Virus record (IMG/VR): IMGVR_UViG_3300036715_000408
Coordinates: 1 to 37,432 of that record
Length of the DNA: 37,432 bases
DNA from: a virus
Reading direction: 5' to 3' (one strand)
Position numbers and translations under genes: made by a program. Every line of letters starts with the position of its first letter. Within the stretch, counting starts at the first letter, position 1. Below are positions 1,809-37,432 of this stretch, in pieces. Below the pieces are notes generated by a model. It was not told where the DNA came from, did no database searches, and was given only the letters and a program-made list of their open reading frames with translations.

Positions 1809-1892
1809 CGCTTTGGTAAGGGGCGCGAGTGATGAACCAACTACGAAGTGAAGTGGCATGTTCGAGCGTCCCGCTTGACCTAAATGTTGGGC
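1803..1892 (-). other. attC-like site 2 (first copy)
   Basis: Outer boxes TCATAAC (1803-1809) and GTTGGGC (1886-1892), 90 bp. Inner arms GGTAAGGGGCGCG and GCGTCCCGCTTGACC pair with single extra bases on the right-hand arm. The extra G in GCTTGACC matches the bottom-strand form of known attC sites, so I infer minus polarity although the adjacent genes run rightward. The TAA of gene 1626-1808 lies in the left box. From base 1806 onward it is identical to 37306-37392. Confidence 0.75.
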
Positions 1893-1932
1893 TTGGAGGA
1901 AATGGAATGGACTGTATTATTTTTCACATTGG
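1806..1932 (+). repeat. 127-bp exact terminal repeat, copy 1
   Basis: Bases 1806-1932 are identical to 37306-37432, the last 127 bases of the window. The bases before each copy differ (TCA before 1806, GCC before 37306). Because the right copy ends at the window edge while the left copy is internal, the contig closes on itself at this point and leaves 1-1805 as a side branch. The exact length 127 is a widely used assembler k-mer. Confidence 0.97.
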
Positions 1933-2074
1933 CGACACCACGATTCAACTGTCCGACGGTGTGGCGATTTTCACGACGTTCGACACAAAAACGGAACTCG
2001 AGCAGTGCATAGAAGTGCCGATAGCACAGCTTACCGATGCTCTGAGCACCGCCAGAATGCTGGTGAAACCATGA
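1907..2074 (+). CDS. Small hypothetical cassette protein
   Basis: A 55-residue acidic protein starting MDCIIFHIGDTT, predicted mostly beta-strand with a C-terminal helix. No family recognised. I chose ATG 1907 because it has a strong GGAGGA seven bases upstream and lies just after attC-like site 2; the longer frame from 1829 would be translated from attC sequence. A shortened attC remnant follows its TGA stop. In the circular phage it follows gene 37072-37308. Confidence 0.65.
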   Translation: MDCIIFHIGDTTIQLSDGVAIFTTFDTKTELEQCIEVPIAQLTDALSTARMLVKP

Positions 2075-2075
2075 C

Positions 2076-2093
2076 GCCCAACGCATGTTATCC
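2076..2093. other. Remnant attC-like site with stem deleted
   Basis: GCCCAAC (2076-2082) and GTTATCC (2087-2093) lie only four bases apart, immediately after the stop of gene 1907-2074. The flanks match the ends of site 1 (TGACGCCCAACG ... CATGTTAT). This is what would remain if the central hairpin of a full attC were deleted. A second short box pair, AATAAC and GTTATT, follows at about 2104-2129. Confidence 0.45.
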
Positions 2094-14927: not shown

Positions 14928-16391
14928 ATGAACGCGACTCAAAATACGCTTGATGCAATCAAGAGCGCCCAGCTTAACCCGCTGTCCGACGCGATTACCA
15001 AGTCTTACAACCAGGCGCTCGGCCTTGTCAATTACGACCTCGAACCGGCCGCGAAGCTGTTGTTCCCGGTGCTCACACCGCTGCGTAATCGCATCCCTCG
15101 TGTGAATGGCAACGGCGGTACTGCCACCAACTGGAAGGCGATCACCGCGATCAACTCCGGACAGGTGCAAGCTGGCGTATCTGAAGGTAAGCGCGGCGGC
15201 GTTGTTACCACCACAAAGCTCGATTACACCGCATCCTATAAAGGTATTGGCCTGGAAGATGACGTTTCATTTGAAGCCGACTATGCGGCCGAAGGTTTCG
15301 ATGATGCGAAAGCGCGCGCAGTAGAAGGACTGCTGCGTGCCACGATGATTCAGGAAGAACGGCTTATTCTTGGTGGCAATGGAGCGGCCGTCGCTCTGGG
15401 CACGACTCCGACCCCGACGCTTGTTGCCAATGGCTCTGGCGGTAGCTTGACGGCCGGCACGCTATACGTTGCATGCGTCGCGTTGACGCTGGATGGCTGG
15501 AAGCGCGCAAGCGTATCCGGCGGCGTGGTAATGACGACTACGCGAACCAATGCAGACGGCACGACGGACACAGTAAGCGGCGGCTGTGCGAACAAATCGG
15601 CCGATGCAACTGTTTCCACAGTGGCAAACGATTCTGTGAATGCCAGCGTTGCACAGGTCAATGGCGCTGTCGCTTACGCTTGGTACTGGGGCACCGCCAC
15701 CGGCACGAAACTGCTCGGTGCGATCACTACGGTGAACTCTCTGGTCATTAAGGCCGCCGCCACCGGCACGCAAAACGCGACCGCGATCACAGCCGACAGA
15801 TCACAAGATGCCCTGGTGTTCGACGGCCTGCTGTACCAGGCGTTCAAGCCTGGCTCTGGCGCGATCATTCAGTCGCTCGCAACAGGAACTCCGGGGATTG
15901 GTACGTCTTTTACCGGAACGAATTCGTCATGCAACGAAATCGACGCGATGCTGTCCTCGTTCTGGGACAACAGCCGTTTGTCGCCGAGTCACATGTTCAT
16001 GTCAGCAAAGACAAACAAGGCGTTGGCACTGGCAATTGCGAAAGACGGTTCGAACAGCCTCATTCGACTGAACGCGGCTGTGAACGAGGGCGCTCTAGGT
16101 CTGGTTGGTGGCGTGCGCATCGGCTCTTACATCCATCCGTTCCTGAACAACGAAATCAAGATCGAAGTCCACCCGGACATGCCGGACGGGATGGTCCTGT
16201 TCTATACCGAGTCGGTTCCTTACCCGCTCTCCGGCGTGGGCAACATCTGCCAGATCAAGACTCGCCGCGACTACTACCAGATCGAGTGGCCGGTGAAGAC
16301 CCGCAAGTATGAGTACGGCGTCTATGTGGATGAATTGCTCCAGCACTACTTCCCGCCCGCGCTTGGGGTTCTCTTCAATATCGATGTGTAA
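14928..16391 (+). CDS. Major capsid protein with inserted Ig-like domain
   Basis: A 487-residue HK97-fold capsid protein, identified from position (after protease-scaffold, before connectors) and from segments such as RNRIPRVNGNGGTATNW, EERLILGGNG and, at the end, IKTRRDYYQIEWPVKTRKYEYGV style strands. Compared with usual capsids of 300-350 residues it has an insertion of roughly residues 155-290, Thr/Val/Gly-rich, reading TLYVACVALTLDGWKRA ... YAWYWGTATGTKLLG, typical of an Ig/fibronectin-like surface domain. Strong RBS GGAGG seven bases before ATG. Confidence 0.88.
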   Translation: MNATQNTLDAIKSAQLNPLSDAITKSYNQALGLVNYDLEPAAKLLFPVLTPLRNRIPRVNGNGGTATNWKAITAINSGQVQAGVSEGKRGGVVTTTKLDYTASYKGIGLEDDVSFEADYAAEGFDDAKARAVEGLLRATMIQEERLILGGNGAAVALGTTPTPTLVANGSGGSLTAGTLYVACVALTLDGWKRASVSGGVVMTTTRTNADGTTDTVSGGCANKSADATVSTVANDSVNASVAQVNGAVAYAWYWGTATGTKLLGAITTVNSLVIKAAATGTQNATAITADRSQDALVFDGLLYQAFKPGSGAIIQSLATGTPGIGTSFTGTNSSCNEIDAMLSSFWDNSRLSPSHMFMSAKTNKALALAIAKDGSNSLIRLNAAVNEGALGLVGGVRIGSYIHPFLNNEIKIEVHPDMPDGMVLFYTESVPYPLSGVGNICQIKTRRDYYQIEWPVKTRKYEYGVYVDELLQHYFPPALGVLFNIDV

Positions 16392-16414
16392 GCCATACGA
16401 TCAGTGATACCAAC

Positions 16415-16440
16415 GGCCTCGCGTTTGACTACGCGGGGCC
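16415..16440 (+). terminator. Hairpin after the major capsid gene
   Basis: GGCCTCGCG (16415-16423) pairs with CGCGGGGCC (16432-16440) including one G-T pair, then TTCTCATTTT. A strong stem with a poor T-tract; it may protect the capsid mRNA or give partial termination. Confidence 0.6.
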
Positions 16441-16464
16441 TTCTCATTTTCCTTGGAGATGCAC

Positions 16465-16746
16465 ATGAACAGACTCAAAGCGCCGGAAGGTACGACAAAT
16501 GTGTCATACGGAGGCGAGAACTACCAGGTCGGCGATGATGGAATAATCGAGGTGCCGGAAACCGCCGTTCAGACTTTGCGCGAATTCGGCTTTGAGCAAG
16601 CCCCAGCGCAAGCCGAAATCCCCGCGCCGGAGCCGTCAAAACCCATGACAAAAGCCGAACTGAAAGCGCTGGCGCAGGAACAGGCGCAGGCAGAAGCAGA
16701 GGCACAGGCGCAGGCAGAAGCGCAAGCCGAACCCTCCGCGCAATAA
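16465..16746 (+). CDS. Small head protein with Gln/Ala/Glu repeats
   Basis: A 93-residue protein. The N-terminal 45 residues (APEGTTNVSYGGENYQVGDDGIIEVPE) resemble the small beta-sandwich found after major capsid genes, probably decoration- or head-related. The C-terminus is a low-complexity run of AQAEAEAQ repeats (about residues 68-90), encoded by GCGCAGGCAGAAGC-type repeats. ATG 16465 has GGAG six bases upstream. Function not known. Confidence 0.7.
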   Translation: MNRLKAPEGTTNVSYGGENYQVGDDGIIEVPETAVQTLREFGFEQAPAQAEIPAPEPSKPMTKAELKALAQEQAQAEAEAQAQAEAQAEPSAQ

Positions 16747-16755
16747 GGTCGCCAC

Positions 16756-17304
16756 ATGGCCGATATGACCACGCTGGACAACGTCAAGCAGTACATTGGC
16801 GTGAGCTCGACCGACGATGATGCGCTGCTTTCTCGGCTCATCACGGCCGTGAGCGAGGGATTCGAGTCCTGCCTTAACCGTGTCATATCGTCAGCGCAGT
16901 ACACCGAGTTAAGAGATGGCAACGGCAAGCAGGCGATGATGTTCGCCAATATGCCGGCGACAGCGGTTTCCAGCGTCAAGGTGAATGGTGTCTCTATACC
17001 GGCCGCACCCGACATCACCAGCTACGGCTACCGATTCGATGAATCACTGCTCACGCTGAATGGTGCGACGTTCGAGAAGGGGCGACGAAACATCGAAATC
17101 GCCTACACAGCCGGATACGTAACGACGCCGAAAGACTTGGAACAGGCATGCATCGAAGTTGTTGCGCTGCGATACAAGGAACGCGACCGTATCGGACACC
17201 AATCCAAGTCCATCGGCGGCGAAAACGTGACATTCATCACCGCCGAAGCGCCGAAATCCGTCCTAGTGGCACTCGACTGGTATAAGAAGGTGGTGCCGCT
17301 GTGA
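16756..17304 (+). CDS. Head-tail connector protein (HK97 gp6-like)
   Basis: A 182-residue adaptor of the HK97 gp6/phiE125 gp8 type, which sits below the portal. The pattern is an N-terminal helical start (TTLDNVKQYIGVSSTDDDALLSRLITAVSEGFE), central beta part with NGVSIPAAP, and the late YTAGYVTTPKDLEQACIEVVALRYKERDRIG helix typical of the family. It overlaps the next gene by four bases (ATGA-like overlap). Confidence 0.85.
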   Translation: MADMTTLDNVKQYIGVSSTDDDALLSRLITAVSEGFESCLNRVISSAQYTELRDGNGKQAMMFANMPATAVSSVKVNGVSIPAAPDITSYGYRFDESLLTLNGATFEKGRRNIEIAYTAGYVTTPKDLEQACIEVVALRYKERDRIGHQSKSIGGENVTFITAEAPKSVLVALDWYKKVVPL

Positions 17305-17786
17305 TAACGGGATACATCACTGGCGATAACGCACTTGTTACCCGCTTGCGTTCGATGCCAGAAGCCGTCGAAAGCGGCATGAAGGCATCAATCGGTAGGC
17401 TTGTGCTTCGGCTTCAGCGGAAGGTTAGGCAAGACAAGCTGACCGGACAGGTGTTGAAAGTTCGCACTGGAACGCTACGCCGCTCAATCGATCAGGTTGT
17501 GTTATCGGAACCCGGCGCGGTGATTGGCATCGTGAGCACAAACGTAAAATACGGCAAGGCGCACGAGTACGGTTACAAAGGCCAGGTCAACATCAAGGCA
17601 CACATGCGGCTAATCAAGCAGGCATGGGGCAAGCCGCTCAAGTATCCTGTGTGGTCAAGCGTGAAGGCGCACACCGCCAATGTTGATCTGCCTGAACGAT
17701 CTTTCCTGCGGTCTGCTTTGCGTGACATGGCTCCAGAGATCAAGGCGGACATTGCCAGCGCCATCAATGGGGCAATTCGCAAATGA
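17301..17786 (+). CDS. Head-tail joining protein (HK97 gp10-like)
   Basis: A 161-residue protein of the HK97 gp10 family. Diagnostic stretch: RTGTLRRSI near residue 55 and YGKAHEYGYKG near 86, followed late by ERSFLRSALRDMAPEIKADI. It links the connector to the tail. GTG/ATG overlaps on both sides show tight coupling with its neighbours. Confidence 0.88.
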   Translation: MITGYITGDNALVTRLRSMPEAVESGMKASIGRLVLRLQRKVRQDKLTGQVLKVRTGTLRRSIDQVVLSEPGAVIGIVSTNVKYGKAHEYGYKGQVNIKAHMRLIKQAWGKPLKYPVWSSVKAHTANVDLPERSFLRSALRDMAPEIKADIASAINGAIRK

Positions 17787-18205
17787 ACCGCGAGGCAATC
17801 TATTCGGCGTTGTTCGCCAAGCTCTCTGCGATTCCAGGGCTGAAGACCAATAGCCGACGGCTCAAGCACTGGTCGGACGTTGATAAGAGCGCACAACCAG
17901 CGCTTTTAATGGCGCAGACAGGCGAGAGCGCGCAGACGACAACCGGGCAGCCAACACGCTGGACCTTGCGCGTCGATGTGTACCTCTACGCGCGCACGGA
18001 CGGTAATAAGGTTCCCGGCCAGATCATCAATACATTGCTCGATGCGGTCTGCGATGCGCTCAAGCCTTCGCCAGTTTCAGGCCGGCAAGACCTCGGTGTG
18101 CCTGGCGTCGAGTGGTGCAGAATCGAGGGGCATATCGAAACAGACGAAGGGACGTTGGGCGATCAACTGGTTGCCATCGTTCCAATCGTCATTCTGGCGT
18201 CATAA
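17783..18205 (+). CDS. Tail terminator / minor tail protein U-like
   Basis: A 140-residue protein located between the gp10-like protein and the tail tube, the standard place for a tail-terminator protein. Sequence features agree: short helical N-terminus (REAIYSALFAKLSAIPGLKT), then PALLMAQ, a central strand block (RWTLRVDVYLYARTD), and a late VEWCRIEGHIETDEGTLGDQ segment. A hairpin follows its stop. Confidence 0.78.
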   Translation: MNREAIYSALFAKLSAIPGLKTNSRRLKHWSDVDKSAQPALLMAQTGESAQTTTGQPTRWTLRVDVYLYARTDGNKVPGQIINTLLDAVCDALKPSPVSGRQDLGVPGVEWCRIEGHIETDEGTLGDQLVAIVPIVILAS

Positions 18206-28057: not shown

Positions 28058-28296
28058 CCAACAGACCAAGCTACGAAGCGCCATACGATGGACCCGAGCG
28101 CCGCGCAATGCCGCTCTCAGAAGATCAGATCGAAGCTATCGCTGAGAAAGCCGCAGACCGTGCAATCGAGAAGATGAAGGCATCAGCGCTACAGGGCGTC
28201 GGAACCTGGACCCTGAACAAAATCAGTTGGATTTTCACGCTGGGCGCAATCGGCTTGTACTGGTGGATGCTGAAGAACGGATGGATCAAACCATGA
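28054..28296 (+). CDS. Small membrane protein, lysis-associated
   Basis: An 80-residue protein with a polar, helical N-terminus (EDQIEAIAEKAADRAIEKM) and one C-terminal membrane segment (about 58-75, ISWIFTLGAIGLYWWMLK). It resembles proteins found before phage muramidases; a holin-like or membrane-anchoring role is possible. Start ATG 28054 overlaps the lipoprotein stop; its own stop overlaps the muramidase ATG. Confidence 0.7.
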   Translation: MTNRPSYEAPYDGPERRAMPLSEDQIEAIAEKAADRAIEKMKASALQGVGTWTLNKISWIFTLGAIGLYWWMLKNGWIKP

Positions 28297-28772
28297 GCAA
28301 CTTCGATGCCGCATTTATCCGCATCGTCGGGCTTGAAGGCAGATACTCAGACGACCCCAAAGACCCCGGCGGAAAAACCAAGTTCGGCATCACCGAGAGC
28401 GTCGCCCGCGCCCACGCCTACCAGGGCGACATGCGTGATCTGCCGCTTGACTTCGCAGGCAAGATTTACCGCACTGATTATTGGGATATCTGCCACTGCG
28501 ACAGTCTGCCCTGGCCGTTGGCGCTCTACGTGTTCGACGCCGCCGTCAACCAGGGTCAGGAAACCGCAATCAAGATGCTGCAACGCGCCTTGGACACCGT
28601 GCAGGACGGCCATATCGGCCCGCAAACCCTGGCCCTGGCCGCCAAGTCAACCGACTGGCACGCCGCCCGCTTACTCGCCTTCCGCGCATTGCAATACACA
28701 GCCACGCGCGGCTTCGATACCTACGGCGTAGGCTGGCTGACGCGGCTTTTTGAAATTGGGAGACAGCCATGA
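28293..28772 (+). CDS. Endolysin, GH108-type N-acetylmuramidase
   Basis: A 159-residue endolysin. The N-terminus IVGLEGRYSDDPKDPGGKTKFGIT is the GH108 core with catalytic Glu15, followed by YRTDYWD and a C-terminal peptidoglycan-binding part (MLQRALDTVQDGHIGPQT). The enzyme cleaves glycan chains of the cell wall. There is no signal peptide, so a holin is needed; ATG 28293 was chosen at the family start and overlaps the previous stop. Confidence 0.9.
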   Translation: MSNFDAAFIRIVGLEGRYSDDPKDPGGKTKFGITESVARAHAYQGDMRDLPLDFAGKIYRTDYWDICHCDSLPWPLALYVFDAAVNQGQETAIKMLQRALDTVQDGHIGPQTLALAAKSTDWHAARLLAFRALQYTATRGFDTYGVGWLTRLFEIGRQP

Positions 28773-30185: not shown

Positions 30186-30257
30186 GGATAACTCTCTGTT
30201 ACAGCCGCGATCACGGCCATAAATCCGGCCGGTCCGGCTTGAATCTGGGCGTTAGGC
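30186..30257 (-). other. attC-like site 3
   Basis: Outer boxes GGATAAC (30186-30192) and GTTAGGC (30251-30257), 72 bp, with an AGCCG/CGGCT inner stem and a CCGGCTTGAATCTGGGCG right arm. The TAA stop of gene 30252-30482 sits in the GTTAGGC box. Arm asymmetry suggests same polarity as that gene. The right 60 bases are similar to 34981-35040. Confidence 0.65.
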
Positions 30258-30482
30258 CACAACAACAGCCTCAGATGCACGCAACTCCTTGATTGCTTCG
30301 CTTGCCTTGTCTGCGGAGTCGAAAAACATCGGCTCGGTGCCTTTGGCAACGTGCATCCAGGCGCCTCCCTTCTCGCGCTTAGTCTGCACGCCATAGATGA
30401 TCGTTGCTTGCGTGGCGTTAATCGCCTCGTCGCTTGTGTCGATCCACTGGGAAACTCGGTACTGCGGAAATTTGATACCCAT
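30252..30482 (-). CDS. Small cassette protein
   Basis: A 76-residue protein starting MGIKFPQYRVSQWIDTSDE, with beta strands and a C-terminal helix (FDSADKASEAIKELRASEAVV). No family recognised; such FDSADKA... endings are known in small phage proteins. Its TAA stop overlaps the attC box, and the next attC (site 4) precedes its start by 25 bases: one cassette. Weak AGGA RBS. Confidence 0.65.
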   Translation of the reverse strand: MGIKFPQYRVSQWIDTSDEAINATQATIIYGVQTKREKGGAWMHVAKGTEPMFFDSADKASEAIKELRASEAVVVA

Positions 30483-30507
30483 GCCTAGGTTCCTATCGTT
30501 GGTTGTG

Positions 30508-30562
30508 GCCTAACCCAGCCAATCAACCGGACCATTCGGGCCGGTTATTGGCACCGTTATGC
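30508..30562 (+). other. attC-like site 4
   Basis: GCCTAAC (30508-30514) and GTTATGC (30556-30562), 55 bp. Inner arms AATCAACCGG and CCGGTTATT pair with one extra C on the left; loop ACCATTCGGG. The clearest compact site in the left arm. Asymmetry implies plus polarity, opposite to the genes. Confidence 0.78.
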
Positions 30563-30744
30563 ACAGCAGAGTCGGATACTACGGTGCGGTATATTGGTAT
30601 GTAGTTTGCACACTCAATGCCACGCTCAGATACCGTGTATTGGAACGTAGCCACGCTTTGCCAGTCGCTAGCCTTCGCCCGCACTCGATAGCAGTGCTCT
30701 GCGTTCGGGCAAAGTGTCTGGGTGCACATCGTAATGTCAGCCAT
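30523..30744 (-). CDS. Small Cys-containing cassette protein reading into attC
   Basis: A 73-residue protein with CTQTLCPNAEHC at the N-terminus, suggesting a metal-binding knuckle, and Cys again at ECANY. No family recognised. Its last 12 residues (VHNGANNRPEWSG) are encoded by attC site 4, and its start (30744) lies one base after the upstream gene's stop. So the two genes share an operon, and the stop codon is inside the attC palindrome. Confidence 0.6.
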   Translation of the reverse strand: MADITMCTQTLCPNAEHCYRVRAKASDWQSVATFQYTVSERGIECANYIPIYRTVVSDSAVHNGANNRPEWSG

Positions 30745-30745
30745 A

Positions 30746-31039
30746 TCAGTCCTTCCGTTGCATAACTGTGCTTTCGATCTGGACGCCAGCGATAAAGCCG
30801 CTGTCGCCCCTCAAAGCGGCGTTATGGCGCTTGCACCCGAGAGCCGAACGAGCCAGCGCAACATTCCTCGGCGTTTCTCCACCGTAGTACGCTTCGAGCT
30901 GGGCAATCTCTTTCAGTGCCGCCCGTGTGCGCCTTACTTCATCGGCCAGCGTCGCAACAACGTCACGCGAGCGCAGCCGGCCAACCGTTTCCGGCGTGCA
31001 GTTCTTCTCGGCCCATTGCAAGGCTTGTTCCAGTGTCAT
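30746..31039 (-). CDS. Cassette gene reading through an attC site
   Basis: A 97-residue protein starting MTLEQALQWAEKNCTPETVGRLRSRDVV, helical, charged, with LADEVRRTRAALKEIAQLEAYYGG in the middle. No family recognised. ATG 31039 has GGAGG seven bases upstream. The final 27 residues (RHNAALRGDSGF ... VMQRKD) are translated from attC site 5, which lies wholly within the reading frame, so the attC supplies the C-terminus. Stop TGA is one base from the next start. Confidence 0.65.
   Translation of the reverse strand: MTLEQALQWAEKNCTPETVGRLRSRDVVATLADEVRRTRAALKEIAQLEAYYGGETPRNVALARSALGCKRHNAALRGDSGFIAGVQIESTVMQRKD
30760..30827 (+). other. attC-like site 5
   Basis: GCATAAC (30760-30766) and GTTATGG (30821-30827), 68 bp. 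Arms GCTTTCGATCTGGACG and CGCCCCTCAAAGC pair, extra bases on the left; inner CAGCG/CGCTG stem. The site is inside gene 30746-31039. Asymmetry implies plus polarity. Confidence 0.75.
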
Positions 31040-31054
31040 GTCTTTACCTCCGCG

Positions 31055-31118
31055 CCATAACCCGGCGCTCAAGCGTGGCGGGCGAAAAGACGCCAGCCCA
31101 TTAATTCGGGCGTTAGGC
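31055..31118 (+). other. attC-like site 6
   Basis: CCATAAC (31055-31061) and GTTAGGC (31112-31118), 64 bp. Arms GCTCAAGCGTGGCGGGCG and CGCCAGCCCATTAAT pair imperfectly. The TAA of gene 31113-31313 lies in the right box. Polarity is unclear. Confidence 0.75.
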
Positions 31119-31313
31119 CCGCCCGCGCTCGGCCAGCATTGCATCAGCCAACGTGTAGGCATCGCGCGCATACATCTCGGGGCCTGATTGCGGCTGAACC
31201 GGGCAGGCGATCATCCCTTGCAGCGCAGCCGCTGCGAAGTAGTCGCGCAGCGCCATGCCGTGCGACTGCCACTTGGATAATTCTTGCACTGGAAATGCAG
31301 GTTCTTGGCCCAT
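31113..31313 (-). CDS. Conserved small phage protein (DYFAA-type)
   Basis: A 66-residue protein: MGQEPAFPVQELSKWQSHGMALRDYFAAAALQGMIA ... AYTLADAMLAERGRA. This arrangement, a MTLRDYFAA-like element followed by an AY..ADAML ending, recurs in many proteobacterial phages; function unknown. I chose ATG 31313 for GGAG six bases upstream. The stop TAA is in the outer box of attC site 6, and attC site 7 lies just before its start. Confidence 0.7.
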   Translation of the reverse strand: MGQEPAFPVQELSKWQSHGMALRDYFAAAALQGMIACPVQPQSGPEMYARDAYTLADAMLAERGRA

Positions 31314-31336
31314 CGTGTTCTCCATAGTAAGTTGCT

Positions 31337-31400
31337 GCATAACAAATCATTCCAGCGGGATGCGCGAAAATCCGCGCGCCACTGAATTCAGGCGTTATGC
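31337..31400 (+). other. attC-like site 7
   Basis: GCATAAC (31337-31343) and GTTATGC (31394-31400), perfectly complementary boxes, 64 bp. Arms CATTCCAGCGGGATGCGCG and CGCGCGCCACTGAATTC pair, extra bases on the left arm. It shares the 16-mer CTGAATTCAGGCGTTA with site 9 (inverted). The TAA of gene 31395-31658 is in the right box. Confidence 0.82.
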
Positions 31401-31658
31401 ATCACCAATAGCCGAGAACGCGCAGCGCCAATCCTTAACGTCGCCGTCATTCCACCAAGCTTCTCCGAATGCGTTGTGGTGATCTGGAAGTTTGTGCGGC
31501 TTGTCGGCCTCAAACTCAAGTATCACACCCCGTCCGACCTTCATCGCCCAGGCCATCGCCGCTTGCATTGTGGTGAAGCCACGCACGGGCGCATGGATCG
31601 CTCCGATTTGCCGGTACAGCTTCGCCTTCTTCTGCGTTGTCGCGTGGTATAGCTTCAT
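31395..31658 (-). CDS. Cassette protein, ADP-ribosyl-like start
   Basis: An 87-residue protein starting MKLYHATTQKKAKLYRQIGA, like the first strands of ADP-ribosyltransferase/RNA 2'-phosphotransferase-type folds (YHATT), followed by a helix and VGRGVILEFEAD. Short for a full domain, so catalysis is not claimed. ATG 31658 has GGAG; it starts two bases after the stop of gene 31661-31870, so the pair is one cassette. Stop TAA is in attC site 7. Confidence 0.65.
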   Translation of the reverse strand: MKLYHATTQKKAKLYRQIGAIHAPVRGFTTMQAAMAWAMKVGRGVILEFEADKPHKLPDHHNAFGEAWWNDGDVKDWRCAFSAIGDA

Positions 31659-31660
31659 TC

Positions 31661-31870
31661 TCAGTCTCCATTTGCGTTTGGAGTCAATGCTGACTTTGCT
31701 ACGTCCAATGCGCGTCTTTCGACAACACCTTTCCAATCATCTATCGGTGCCCGCATCGCCTCCACAGAAATGCGCAGCGCTTCGCGAAGCGCTGCGTTTT
31801 TGGCTTCAAGGCGATTAATCATCACAGCGCATTCTCCGTGGATGTCTCCACCTGATTTTTCATCAAACAT
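31661..31870 (-). CDS. Small hypothetical cassette protein
   Basis: A 69-residue protein with HGECAVMINRLEAKNAALREALRISVEAMRAP, a leucine-rich coiled helix of the kind common in small phage early proteins. No family recognised. AGGAG RBS eight bases upstream of ATG 31870. It is the first gene of a two-gene cassette with 31395-31658; attC site 8 follows on its 5' side. Confidence 0.65.
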   Translation of the reverse strand: MFDEKSGGDIHGECAVMINRLEAKNAALREALRISVEAMRAPIDDWKGVVERRALDVAKSALTPNANGD

Positions 31871-31892
31871 TCCGTTTCTCCTGTGCTGTCAA

Positions 31893-31964
31893 GCCCAACA
31901 AGGCGCTAAAGTCTCGACATGGCGCGATAACCAAGCGCCAGTTGGCCTTAACTAAGCGTTATCC
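31893..31964 (+). other. attC-like site 8
   Basis: GCCCAAC (31893-31899) and GTTATCC (31958-31964), 72 bp; arms AAGGCGCTAAAG and GGCCTTAACTAAGC with an inner GGCGC/GCGCC stem. The right arm CCTTAACTAAGCGTTA is close to that of classical attC sites in plus orientation. It lies between recT (ending 32019) and the cassette block, so it bounds the block on the recT side. Confidence 0.75.
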
Positions 31965-32018: not shown

Positions 32019-33080
32019 TTATTCCATGTTCATCGGTTGACGTTCGCGTCTACCGCGCGGCGCTTGTTGCTGCTCTGCCTCAGCAATTTCTTGGGCGCGG
32101 ATCGCTGCGGCCTCTTCTTCCGTCGGTTGCCATTTGCCGGGCGGTACGACATTCGACGACTGCGATTCGATCTGGCGCAGCGCTTCGTCGTCATGGTCGA
32201 CGACTTGCGCCGGCGGCGCTTCATCTTCCATTGTCACGTCGAACGCGACTTCCTCAATCGGTGCGGCTTGCTTGATGGCATGGCCGTCAATGGCCCCAGC
32301 GAAGGCGAGCGATTCGATACTGATTGGCAGGTACTTGAACAACCGGCGCAGCACGGTCTTGCGCCCCATTTCGATGTAGTTGTCCGCCCAAGGCCCGGTG
32401 ATGATAGGCTTGCCTTCCTTATCCTTCCGAACTCGGTTTTTCTCAGCCGACTTGTCGCGGATTGCGTTCACTTCATCGATGCTCATGAACTCAAACGAAT
32501 AGCCGCCTCCGGTGAGCTTTGCGACTGCGTAGAAGCCGATGACGTTTCCGCGCGCGTTGAGTGATGGCTTGTGAACCAACTCTTCATCTAGGCCGTAGGC
32601 GAAGCGGAATTCATCGCGCTCACAGACTTCATGCGCCGCGATGCTGACGATCTGTCCAGAGCGACGTGCCAGGTCGAGCATGCCCTTGTATCCGATGATG
32701 ACCTGCACTTGTGTTTCTACCGTTACCCAATCGTTTCCGCGCTTCTCGCGCTTGTCGAATGGCAGCAGGTAGGCGTGGCCCAGTGGTGTATTCGGCTCAA
32801 GTCCGAGCTGGGCACAGGTCACGACCGCGCCAAGAAGTGATTGAACGCTGGCGCCGGACAGCTTCGGCGTGGTGCGCATGGCTCCGAAGGCCAATTTCAA
32901 CATTCGATCAGCATCAAAATGCTTTGGCAGCAGGGCGACGAGCGTGCCACGGTTGGCTTCGAAGAACTTCTTCACGGTGGCTGTTCCGACCTGCGATGCG
33001 GTTTGCTTGGCGACAGCGGCCATTTCCTGACCGGTCATGGTGGTTGCGACGGCGCGCAACTGGGATGCGGGTGCGTTCAT
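32019..33080 (-). CDS. recT: RecT-family single-strand annealing protein
   Basis: A 353-residue RecT-type annealing protein. Core segments are present: AFGAMRTTPKLSGASVQSLLGAVVTCAQLGLEP near residue 75, PFDKREKRGN ... VETQVQVIIGYKGMLDLARRSG near 115, and KEGKPIITGPWADNYIEMGRKTVLRRLFKYLPIS near 225. It pairs single strands for recombination with the YqaJ exonuclease encoded just upstream. GGAG RBS before ATG. It stands next to the attC-bounded gene block, so its annealing activity may matter for cassette exchange (inference). Confidence 0.93.
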   Translation of the reverse strand: MNAPASQLRAVATTMTGQEMAAVAKQTASQVGTATVKKFFEANRGTLVALLPKHFDADRMLKLAFGAMRTTPKLSGASVQSLLGAVVTCAQLGLEPNTPLGHAYLLPFDKREKRGNDWVTVETQVQVIIGYKGMLDLARRSGQIVSIAAHEVCERDEFRFAYGLDEELVHKPSLNARGNVIGFYAVAKLTGGGYSFEFMSIDEVNAIRDKSAEKNRVRKDKEGKPIITGPWADNYIEMGRKTVLRRLFKYLPISIESLAFAGAIDGHAIKQAAPIEEVAFDVTMEDEAPPAQVVDHDDEALRQIESQSSNVVPPGKWQPTEEEAAAIRAQEIAEAEQQQAPRGRRERQPMNME

Positions 33081-34900: not shown

Positions 34901-34980
34901 TAGCATTTTGTAAATTTATTTTCCGACAGCGTTACCGGGCCATCGAACCTTGCAGATGGTGGCATTGAATGCGCCGCGCC

Positions 34981-35040
34981 CTAACGCCCCAGATTCAGTC
35001 CAGCCCGGCCGGATTTATGACCGGGATCGCGCCAGCAACA
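34981..35040 (-). other. attC-like element, degenerate
   Basis: On the minus strand this 60-bp stretch (CGCGATCCCGGTCATAAAT ... CTGAATCTGGGGCGTTAGG) is similar to the element at 30199-30257, but inverted. It covers the last 14 codons and stop of gene 34995-35432. Only the GTTAGGG box is clear; no left box is visible. Next to it is an imperfect inverted repeat CGTTA...TAACG (34930-34986). Confidence 0.5.
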
Positions 35041-35432
35041 TGAGAAGCAGCGCGCCTAATACCCAAGGACAAATCACCGTCGCCAAACTGGCGTAGGGTG
35101 TCGGCGCTTGCGTCGTCGATGCTGATGTTCCGGCGCTTGAGGCCGGTGGCGCCATCACTCGATTTTTTGCCCTGACCACGGCCTGGGCCGCCACGACCGG
35201 CGCGGACTTCGGCCAGTGCGGCCGCAACCTTGCTTTGTGGCAAGGTTCGCACCGCTCCGGCGTTGACTTGGATAAAGATGCCGGTAGCATCGATCCGCAC
35301 CAGCGCACCTGTGTCTCCGTGGCTGCTGGTTATGGTGCCGAGCGCCCGGCTACCCGACGGGATGGTGCTGGTGTACAGCCGCCACGCGCCGCCAAGGGCG
35401 ACGGTGAGGCGGCCACGATTTTGGTGAGTCAT
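34995..35432 (-). CDS. Hypothetical protein with RHH-like C-terminus
   Basis: A 145-residue protein. The N-terminal half is beta-type (LGGAWRLYTSTIPSGSRALGTI, IDATGIFIQVNAGAVRTLP); the C-terminal half RRNISIDDASADTLRQFGDGDLSLGIRRAA resembles the strand-helix-helix of small regulators. GGAG eight bases before ATG. The last codons lie in an attC-like element. A DNA-binding function is likely but not certain. Confidence 0.65.
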   Translation of the reverse strand: MTHQNRGRLTVALGGAWRLYTSTIPSGSRALGTITSSHGDTGALVRIDATGIFIQVNAGAVRTLPQSKVAAALAEVRAGRGGPGRGQGKKSSDGATGLKRRNISIDDASADTLRQFGDGDLSLGIRRAASHVAGAIPVINPAGLD

Positions 35433-36190: not shown

Positions 36191-36427
36191 ATGAACCTAA
36201 AAGAATATCTCAGCACTACAGGCTCGTCGGTTGCTCTTGCCATAAAAATCGGCGTCACGCCAGTGATCATTAGCCAGTGGAAGACGGGCGTTCGCCCTGT
36301 ACCAATAAGGCGTTGCCTCGCAATCGAGCGCACCACCAACGGAGCGGTGACGCGGCGCGATCTGCGCCCGGACGACTGGGAAAGCATCTGGCCTGAACTG
36401 GCTGAGAAGGTGGCGGCTAACGCCTGA
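36191..36427 (+). CDS. YdaS/Cro-like HTH regulator (copy 1)
   Basis: A 78-residue YdaS-family protein: N-terminal MNLKEYLSTTGSSVALAIKI, HTH of the type IGVTPVIISQWKTG, then CLAIERTTNGAVTRRDLRPDD shared with the copy at 2302-2541. The HTH differs from that copy. It is the first rightward gene, divergent from the leftward promoter at 35989, so it has the cro place. The stop codon is followed by attC-like site 9. No good Shine-Dalgarno. Confidence 0.85.
   Translation: MNLKEYLSTTGSSVALAIKIGVTPVIISQWKTGVRPVPIRRCLAIERTTNGAVTRRDLRPDDWESIWPELAEKVAANA
36314..36375 (+). repeat. 62-bp exact repeat of YdaS-type genes (copy B)
   Basis: Identical to 2434-2495, in the same reading frame of the other YdaS-type gene. 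Confidence 0.95.
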
Positions 36428-36479
36428 ATTCAGGGTGAGGGCTGCTTTTCGCCCGTCCAGCTTGAATGCAATGTTTTGC
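36415..36479 (-). other. attC-like site 9
   Basis: GGCTAAC (36415-36421) and GTTTTGC (36473-36479), 65 bp, boxes imperfectly complementary. Left arm CGCCTGAATTCAGGG, right arm CCAGCTTGAATGC, loop stem GGGC/GCCC. The 16-mer TAACGCCTGAATTCAG is inverted relative to site 7. Extra bases on the right suggest minus polarity. It overlaps the last codons of the YdaS-type gene. Confidence 0.65.
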
Positions 36480-36491
36480 ATGGAGAACAGG

Positions 36492-36755
36492 ATGAAACTG
36501 GAAATTGAGATTACCGAAGAAGAAATTAAGCGCGCGGTTGAGCGTAAGGTAAGAGCTGCAATTGTCGACCAGACAAACCAGTGGAATACCGACCAATTTA
36601 TCAAGGAGCGCGTAAAGGCACACTGGTGCTCCGCGATTGACGCGCTTGTGCTTGAAGTATTGAACGACAGCAAGTCGCTGCGCGAAAAGGTTGCTGCTGA
36701 ATTTGAAAAGAAGCTGCGGGCACAATTGTCTTCGGCGATCAAGAATGCCGCCTAA
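36492..36755 (+). CDS. Small hypothetical cassette protein
   Basis: An 87-residue, highly charged helical protein (MKLEIEITEEEIKRAVERKVRAAIVDQ). Coiled-coil likely; no family recognised. ATG 36492 has GGAG six bases upstream. The stop TAA lies in the GCCTAAC box of attC site 10, and attC site 9 is upstream, so gene plus attC make one cassette. Confidence 0.72.
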   Translation: MKLEIEITEEEIKRAVERKVRAAIVDQTNQWNTDQFIKERVKAHWCSAIDALVLEVLNDSKSLREKVAAEFEKKLRAQLSSAIKNAA

Positions 36756-36809
36756 CGATTGAATTAAGGGGCGCGCTTTAGCGCGTCCCGCTTGAATTAG
36801 GTGTTAGGC
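36750..36809 (-). other. attC-like site 10
   Basis: GCCTAAC (36750-36756) and GTTAGGC (36803-36809), perfect complementary boxes, 60 bp. Arms AATTAAGGGGCGCG and CGCGTCCCGCTTGAATT pair with extra bases on the right; loop CTTTAG. A textbook attC layout. Asymmetry implies minus polarity while the gene runs plus. Confidence 0.85.
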
Positions 36810-37205: not shown

Positions 37206-37308
37206 TTCCCTCTACTCTGAGACGAAGATTGCGATGTTCAGCAATGAGATCGGCAAAGACATTCCTGCGATGGGCGAGCTGCGCATCGGTGACGGAAGCG
37301 ATGCCTAA
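37072..37308 (+). CDS. Small hypothetical cassette protein
   Basis: A 78-residue protein starting MKAGKIETTGQLRTMLANAAKGVLNGDLDIDRAIALHKLAKNI, a pattern common in small proteobacterial phage proteins. Function unknown. Its stop TAA is in attC site 2 (second copy). It overlaps the preceding frame. In the circular phage it is followed by gene 1907-2074. Confidence 0.75.
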   Translation: MKAGKIETTGQLRTMLANAAKGVLNGDLDIDRAIALHKLAKNISDSLYSETKIAMFSNEIGKDIPAMGELRIGDGSDA

Positions 37309-37392
37309 CGCTTTGGTAAGGGGCGCGAGTGATGAACCAACTACGAAGTGAAGTGGCATGTTCGAGCGTCCCGCTTGACCTAAATGTTGGGC
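37303..37392 (-). other. attC-like site 2 (second copy)
   Basis: GCCTAAC (37303-37309) and GTTGGGC (37386-37392), 90 bp, identical to 1806-1892 from base 37306. The outer box here is GCCTAAC where copy 1 has TCATAAC. This is the junction that closes the phage circle. Confidence 0.8.
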
Positions 37393-37432
37393 TTGGAGGA
37401 AATGGAATGGACTGTATTATTTTTCACATTGG
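37306..37432 (+). repeat. 127-bp exact terminal repeat, copy 2
   Basis: The last 127 bases equal 1806-1932; the match begins inside the attC outer box and ends at the window edge within the gene that starts at 37407. Confidence 0.97.
37407..37432 (+). CDS. Partial copy of cassette gene 1907-2074
   Basis: First codons of the same gene as 1907-2074, cut by the window end. It is not a second gene if the two repeat copies are one locus in a circular molecule. Confidence 0.8.

Follow-up and report, generated by a model that had tools for sequence, protein, structure and literature searches.

Genome organisation

The DNA under study (the window, a stretch of 37,432 nucleotides analysed as a whole) belongs to a phage, with genes for a portal, tape measure and tail proteins, an endolysin, a DnaB-like helicase, a recE-like exonuclease and RecT. 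Two groups of small genes are interspersed with attC sites (Table 1). Array A (30.2–32.0 kb) consists of six small leftward ORFs between six attC sites and is located downstream of recT. Array B (36.4–37.4 kb, joined to 1.8–2.08 kb in the circular genome) is read rightward and lies downstream of a Cro-like gene. The earlier note had described an integron-like block of six small leftward genes between palindromes, placed between the lysis genes and recT; the six ORFs are in place, and the block is bordered as described by the endolysin region and recT. It had missed the second array on the other strand, the antisense position of the genes and the moves of cassettes between the arrays.

Table 1. 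Features of the two arrays and their surroundings. For attC sites, the strand is that of the attC top strand; scores are those of covariance model R1.
Feature	Position	Strand	Remarks
Endolysin region	28263–28772		PHROG endolysin
attC site 1	30186–30257	+	16.9 bits, weak
Cassette gene, 76 aa	30252–30482	−	Ends TAA in R′ of site 1
attC site 2	30508–30562	+	29.3 bits
Cassette ORF, 73 aa	30523–30744	−	Its cassette (window 30556–30821) is in array B of L278
attC site 3	30760–30827	+	22.9 bits
Cassette ORF, about 97 aa	30746–31039	−	Reads through site 3; in array B of L278
attC site 4	31055–31118	+	34.1 bits; poor fold
Cassette gene, 75 aa	31113–31340	−	PHROG 2201; ends TAA in R′ of site 4
attC site 5	31337–31400	+	52.7 bits
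Cassette gene, about 87–90 aa	31395–31667	−	Ends TAA in R′ of site 5
Second ORF of the 31395–31667 cassette, 69 aa	31661–31870	−	
attC site 6	31893–31964	+	21.2 bits; adjoins recT
recT	32019–33080	−	Upstream neighbour of array A, same direction
Cro/repressor-like gene	36191–36427	+	Upstream edge of array B
attC site B1	36415–36479	−	23.1 bits
Cassette gene, 91 aa	36480–36755	+	Ends TAA in R′ of B2
attC site B2	36750–36809	−	61.8 bits, E 8.5e-14; textbook attC
Cassette ORF, 131 aa	36810–37205	+	
Overlapping cassette ORF, 78 aa	37072–37308	+	Ends TAA in R′ of B3
attC site B3	37303–37392	−	39.9 bits
Second copy of B3	1803–1892	−	31.2 bits; different cassette upstream
Cassette gene after B3	1829–2074	+	Longest frame, start uncertain; in array A of L278
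Terminal R box	2076–2082		After the 1829–2074 gene
attC site	1306–1395	−	42.2 bits; alternative branch 1–1805
attC-like site	961–1026	−	20.4 bits; degenerate R′; alternative branch 1–1805

The window contains an exact 127-bp repeat (37306–37432 is the same as 1806–1932), which suggests the end of a walk through the assembly graph and the presence in the population of two alternative cassettes 5′ of one attC. As judged from the contig and not from reads, the genome would be a circle of 35,500 bp (1806–37305) with an alternative upstream branch, 1–1805. The TAAC of an R′ box is the point where this branch and the main one run into the sequence common to both. A nucleotide search against annotated phages gave matches limited to the recT/endonuclease region and one match in the endolysin region.

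The two Cro-like genes (2302–2541 and 36191–36427) have in common a 105-bp stretch, 88% identical (2434–2538 and 36314–36418), which stops at the edge of array B. In addition, recE and recT adjoin array A, recT adjoins the array of viral contig G314, and erf adjoins that of G010; the location of arrays downstream of recT or erf in three different phages is possibly due to chance and possibly indicates a link with single-strand annealing.

The absence of an integron integrase, claimed in the earlier note, was borne out by profile TIGR02249, which has no match in the window. The tyrosine recombinase profile PF00589 has no match there either, and none in the close relative L278 (contig G001). A complete integron comprises intI, attI and the promoter Pc, and the window, having no intI, does not hold one. 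With clustered attC sites and no integron integrase, the locus is a CALIN by the features tested; one usual feature, a gene on the attC top strand, is absent.

attC sites

The attC sites were located with a covariance model (R1) built from 32 sites that adjoin intI in genomes of Burkholderiales; to keep the test from being circular, the window contributed none of them. The route to this order led from one cassette gene to Lampropedia hyalina and from there to the Burkholderiales, which were searched for an integron integrase; IntI scored above the curated cut-off in 115 of the 300 genomes sampled. Training sites were picked by a strand-symmetric palindrome rule and oriented by intI alone. The resulting polarity is self-consistent, with 240 of 240 matches on the strand predicted from intI.

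With filters off, the model found 12 attC sites in the window, 11 of them with at least 20 bits, and one partial stray match elsewhere. All sites of array A are on the plus strand and all those of array B on the minus strand. The six palindromes reported earlier for 30186–31964 were all recovered, five with at least 20 bits and site 1 with 16.9. In a further 1.54 Mb of viral loci R1 matched ten places, nine of them in contigs with attC-like matches and one (18.7 bits) that looks stray; false matches are thus rare, and the recovery of the six palindromes is far above chance. R1 also recognised the attC sites already described for phages TJE1, PH101 and MW202573, and it found no sites in P12002L. 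A blastn search of a phage collection with single attC sites returned MW202573 and one weak match only, and an Rfam search of the window gave nothing convincing and no known RNA element. Chance palindromes were considered and rejected.

According to the R1 alignment, the R″/R′ and L″/L′ boxes with unpaired bases are present in most sites. Strand preference is strong at 36750–36809 (61.8 versus 17.6 bits), the site with the best E-value in the window. The bottom strand folds clearly better than shuffled sequence at 30508, 30760, 31893 and 36750; the advantage is marginal at 30186 and 31337, absent at 31055 and marginal or absent at the other sites. Sites 1, 4 and B1 are poor folders. Folding, which had been proposed as a check on the six palindromes of array A, is therefore clear for three of them, marginal for two and lacking for one. 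The last, site 4, looks decayed or chimeric, since its fold is no better than chance and its counterpart in a relative scores 52 bits with R1. A degenerate attC-like half site at 34980–35045, 83% like site 1 and located at the end of ORF 34995–35432, was missed by R1.

Cassette proteins

Neither Pfam nor PADLOC assigned a function to the cassette genes of the window. The product of gene 31395–31667 has relatives 70–96% identical in other viral contigs. A relative of the gene is also found in the chromosome of L. hyalina, where it follows an attC in antisense position; that genome also has IntI. A structure model of this protein (mean pLDDT 77) matches ADP-ribosyltransferase/KptA folds weakly (best E 0.11), and the predicted similarity can serve as a lead. 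R1 found no attC in contigs that carry the gene outside arrays (L023, L024, L026–L029 and L152), so it does not occur solely in cassette form. The protein encoded at 31113–31340 had two weak matches in 399 Burkholderiales genomes. In L278, Type IV CRISPR effector genes (csf1/cas8-like, cas11-like and csf2/cas7-like, 16018–18054) lie directly after an attC at 15967–16023 (PADLOC E 1.4e-30 for cas7); the contig stops soon after them, and they may or may not form a cassette.

Orientation of genes relative to attC

Genes of bacterial integrons usually have the same direction as the attC top strand. Orientation was called here by one procedure for bacterial and viral arrays, from the ORF with the highest codon score in each interval between adjacent attC sites. 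Confident ORFs in Burkholderiales integrons comprised 54 sense and three antisense, whereas the window and contigs G010, G314 and G321 together had nine antisense and none sense. Twenty-one further IMG/VR contigs, picked by a gene-blind attC pattern and not each proved viral, had 27 antisense and two sense, bringing the viral total to 36 antisense against two sense, compared with three against 54 in bacteria (Fisher p 3e-20). The six contigs with phage-type flanking genes (the window, G010, G314, G321, L233 and L257) had 13 antisense and none sense (p 1e-11). With no score threshold, the contrast is weaker and still clear: sense-to-antisense ratios are 149:45 for bacterial and 32:73 for viral arrays (p 7e-15). 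The reversed polarity is not universal. In the published phage arrays, the annotated genes of PH101 and MW202573 are antisense and those of TJE1 are sense, the opposite polarity.

The confident genes of the window are on the attC bottom strand. Along a gene, the order is attC, gene and then a stop codon at or just before the crossover (RYYYAA/C on the coding strand, with the slash at the crossover). The R′ box reads GCC or GCA, then TAA and C; in frame, this is an alanine codon followed by a stop codon, and five genes of the window end in this way. A swap at this point keeps every protein whole. The earlier observation that three genes of array A end with TAA inside the outer box holds for exactly three (30252–30482, 31113–31340 and 31395–31667), and the box is R′.

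Comparison with known systems

According to Qi et al. 2023 (PMC9892861), 17 CALINs occur in phages, and IntI1 recombined five of the six phage attC sites tested. The earlier view of the locus holds as regards an integron-like array with no integrase, but this way of keeping phage genes is not entirely new, phage CALINs having been reported in 2023. The arrays described in that article (TJE1, PH101, P12002L and MW202573) resemble the present ones in having attC sites, small genes and no integrase. In contrast, the window has two arrays on opposite strands, cassettes exchanged between near-identical phages and antisense genes. In the parts of the article consulted, we found no remark on the orientation of genes against attC in phage arrays, and orientation is the feature that we did not find described.

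The sedentary chromosomal integrons of Burkholderiales, from which R1 was derived, are similar in attC sequence and structure, but they have their own intI, and their genes lie for the most part on the top strand of attC (54 of the 57 ORFs called with confidence). The Lampropedia array holds a relative of one window gene as a cassette. In an experimentally inverted chromosomal integron of Vibrio cholerae (PMC11023631), the orientation of attC strands likewise affects folding and the frequency of excision; there, however, the whole array is turned against replication, whereas in the window each gene is turned against its own attC.

Movement of units between arrays and phages

The backbone of L278 is 97–98% identical to the window over several kilobases. 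Two units of the window (30556–31112) are in array A, leftward and by recT, and in L278 they are in array B, oriented with that operon and flanked by the 36480–36755 gene on one side and the 36810/37072 genes on the other. Conversely, array B of the window holds the gene at 1892–2082 (ending at 2074), which in L278 belongs to array A. The units that differ in array thus lie on opposite genome strands in the two phages. Comparison with relatives, suggested in the earlier note, has therefore revealed whole gene-plus-palindrome units that are shuffled, with exchange at box boundaries. Viral contig L262 shares a whole attC-plus-gene unit (window 36418–36757); this unit and a stretch of the lysis region are its only matches to the window longer than 100 bp. 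L278 and L266 carry an identical 65-bp attC between different flanks, and attC sequences that are identical or nearly so recur in L266 and L233 amid other genes.

Ten of the 11 placeable block edges fall inside an attC or a terminal R box, which make up 24% of array sequence (binomial p 6e-6), and seven are at most 3 bp from an R′ box (4.4% of array sequence, p 9e-8); these p-values assume independent edges, which is true only roughly. The mobile unit appears to be a gene with its attC, exchanged at the R′ core, as expected of a gene cassette. Since whole units swap arrays and the edges coincide with attC sites and R′ boxes, the units of the window can be regarded as exchangeable cassettes, the recombination being deduced from the compared sequences. 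Simple exchange between two attC sites does not explain the edges at 1891, 31103 and 31345, which lie at R″ or inside an attC and off the R′ crossover, or the edge at 2071, which is 5 bp beyond a terminal R box. The first three point to some second process that also acts.

Annealing by RecE/RecT, which would swap modules at attC sites as mere short common sequences and with no integrase, accommodates such edges, as well as identical attC sequences with different flanks and the recE/recT, recT (G314) and erf (G010) genes beside the arrays. It is nevertheless an unlikely general explanation: seven of the 11 edges lie at the R′ box, where exchanged attC sites have little more than about 7–9 bp in common. 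Moreover, R1 still scores strand-specific asymmetry in most sites, which simple homology would not keep, and an intact palindrome with unpaired bases corresponds to the needs of IntI, not RecT. The arrays could also be fossils, pieces of host chromosomal integrons that were taken in bulk and no longer move. Bulk pick-up of this kind is known for Vibrio anguillarum phages (PMC9892861), and several sites here are degenerate. This account is disfavoured and seems very improbable: unlike in host integrons, the genes are antisense to attC and follow the direction of the phage operon, and two arrays on opposite strands swap cassettes between near-identical phages.

Apart from the named phages, all the contigs are metagenomic, and misjoins at repeats are possible. 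The 127-bp end repeat of an internal stretch is what assemblers typically leave when halted by a repeat, so the rearrangements might be assembly artefacts at repeated attC sites. There is, however, little chance of this, as the attC sequences differ at most junctions, and a contig from a second metagenome matches L278 at 99.97% over 7.3 kb, including the start of its array B. Terminators or mRNA hairpins unrelated to integrons would also lie as palindromes between the genes of one operon, but this can practically be dismissed, given the lack of an Rfam element, attC model E-values down to 8.5e-14 with strand preference and edges at R′ boxes.

Proposed mechanism and biological meaning

The phage carries two true cassette arrays without an integrase, in which back-to-front cassettes are probably moved by IntI in trans and would form a partly separate pool. 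The most likely engine would be an IntI supplied in trans from the host, or from some other element within the cell, because both the window and L278 are without a PF00589 tyrosine recombinase; it would recombine folded bottom strands during infection. One idea is that the transcribed, displaced strand aids the folding of attC. The phage operon would express whatever occupies the array. As attC recombination is directional and the array runs against the phage operon, back-to-front cassettes would be favoured, and their pool would be partly separate from that of bacterial integrons. A separate phage pool, expressed in phage operons, silent in bacterial integrons by directionality and sharing with them the host integrase, is conceivable, if somewhat short of probable. 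The Lampropedia unit, which is antisense and follows an attC in an IntI-bearing genome, fits the leakage of a cassette of this kind into a bacterium.

That several unrelated phages and two of the three published arrays examined have the reversed polarity suggests that direction sorts phage from bacterial cassettes. Integron integrases are SOS-induced in many hosts; therefore, shuffling could be set off by infection itself or by the induction of a prophage. Phage accessory regions vary, and the gain and loss of single small genes in them is mostly unexplained. Here, this turnover of small genes is explained by a site-specific system in which whole cassettes pass from array to array and from phage to phage, apparently by means of an integrase borrowed from the host.
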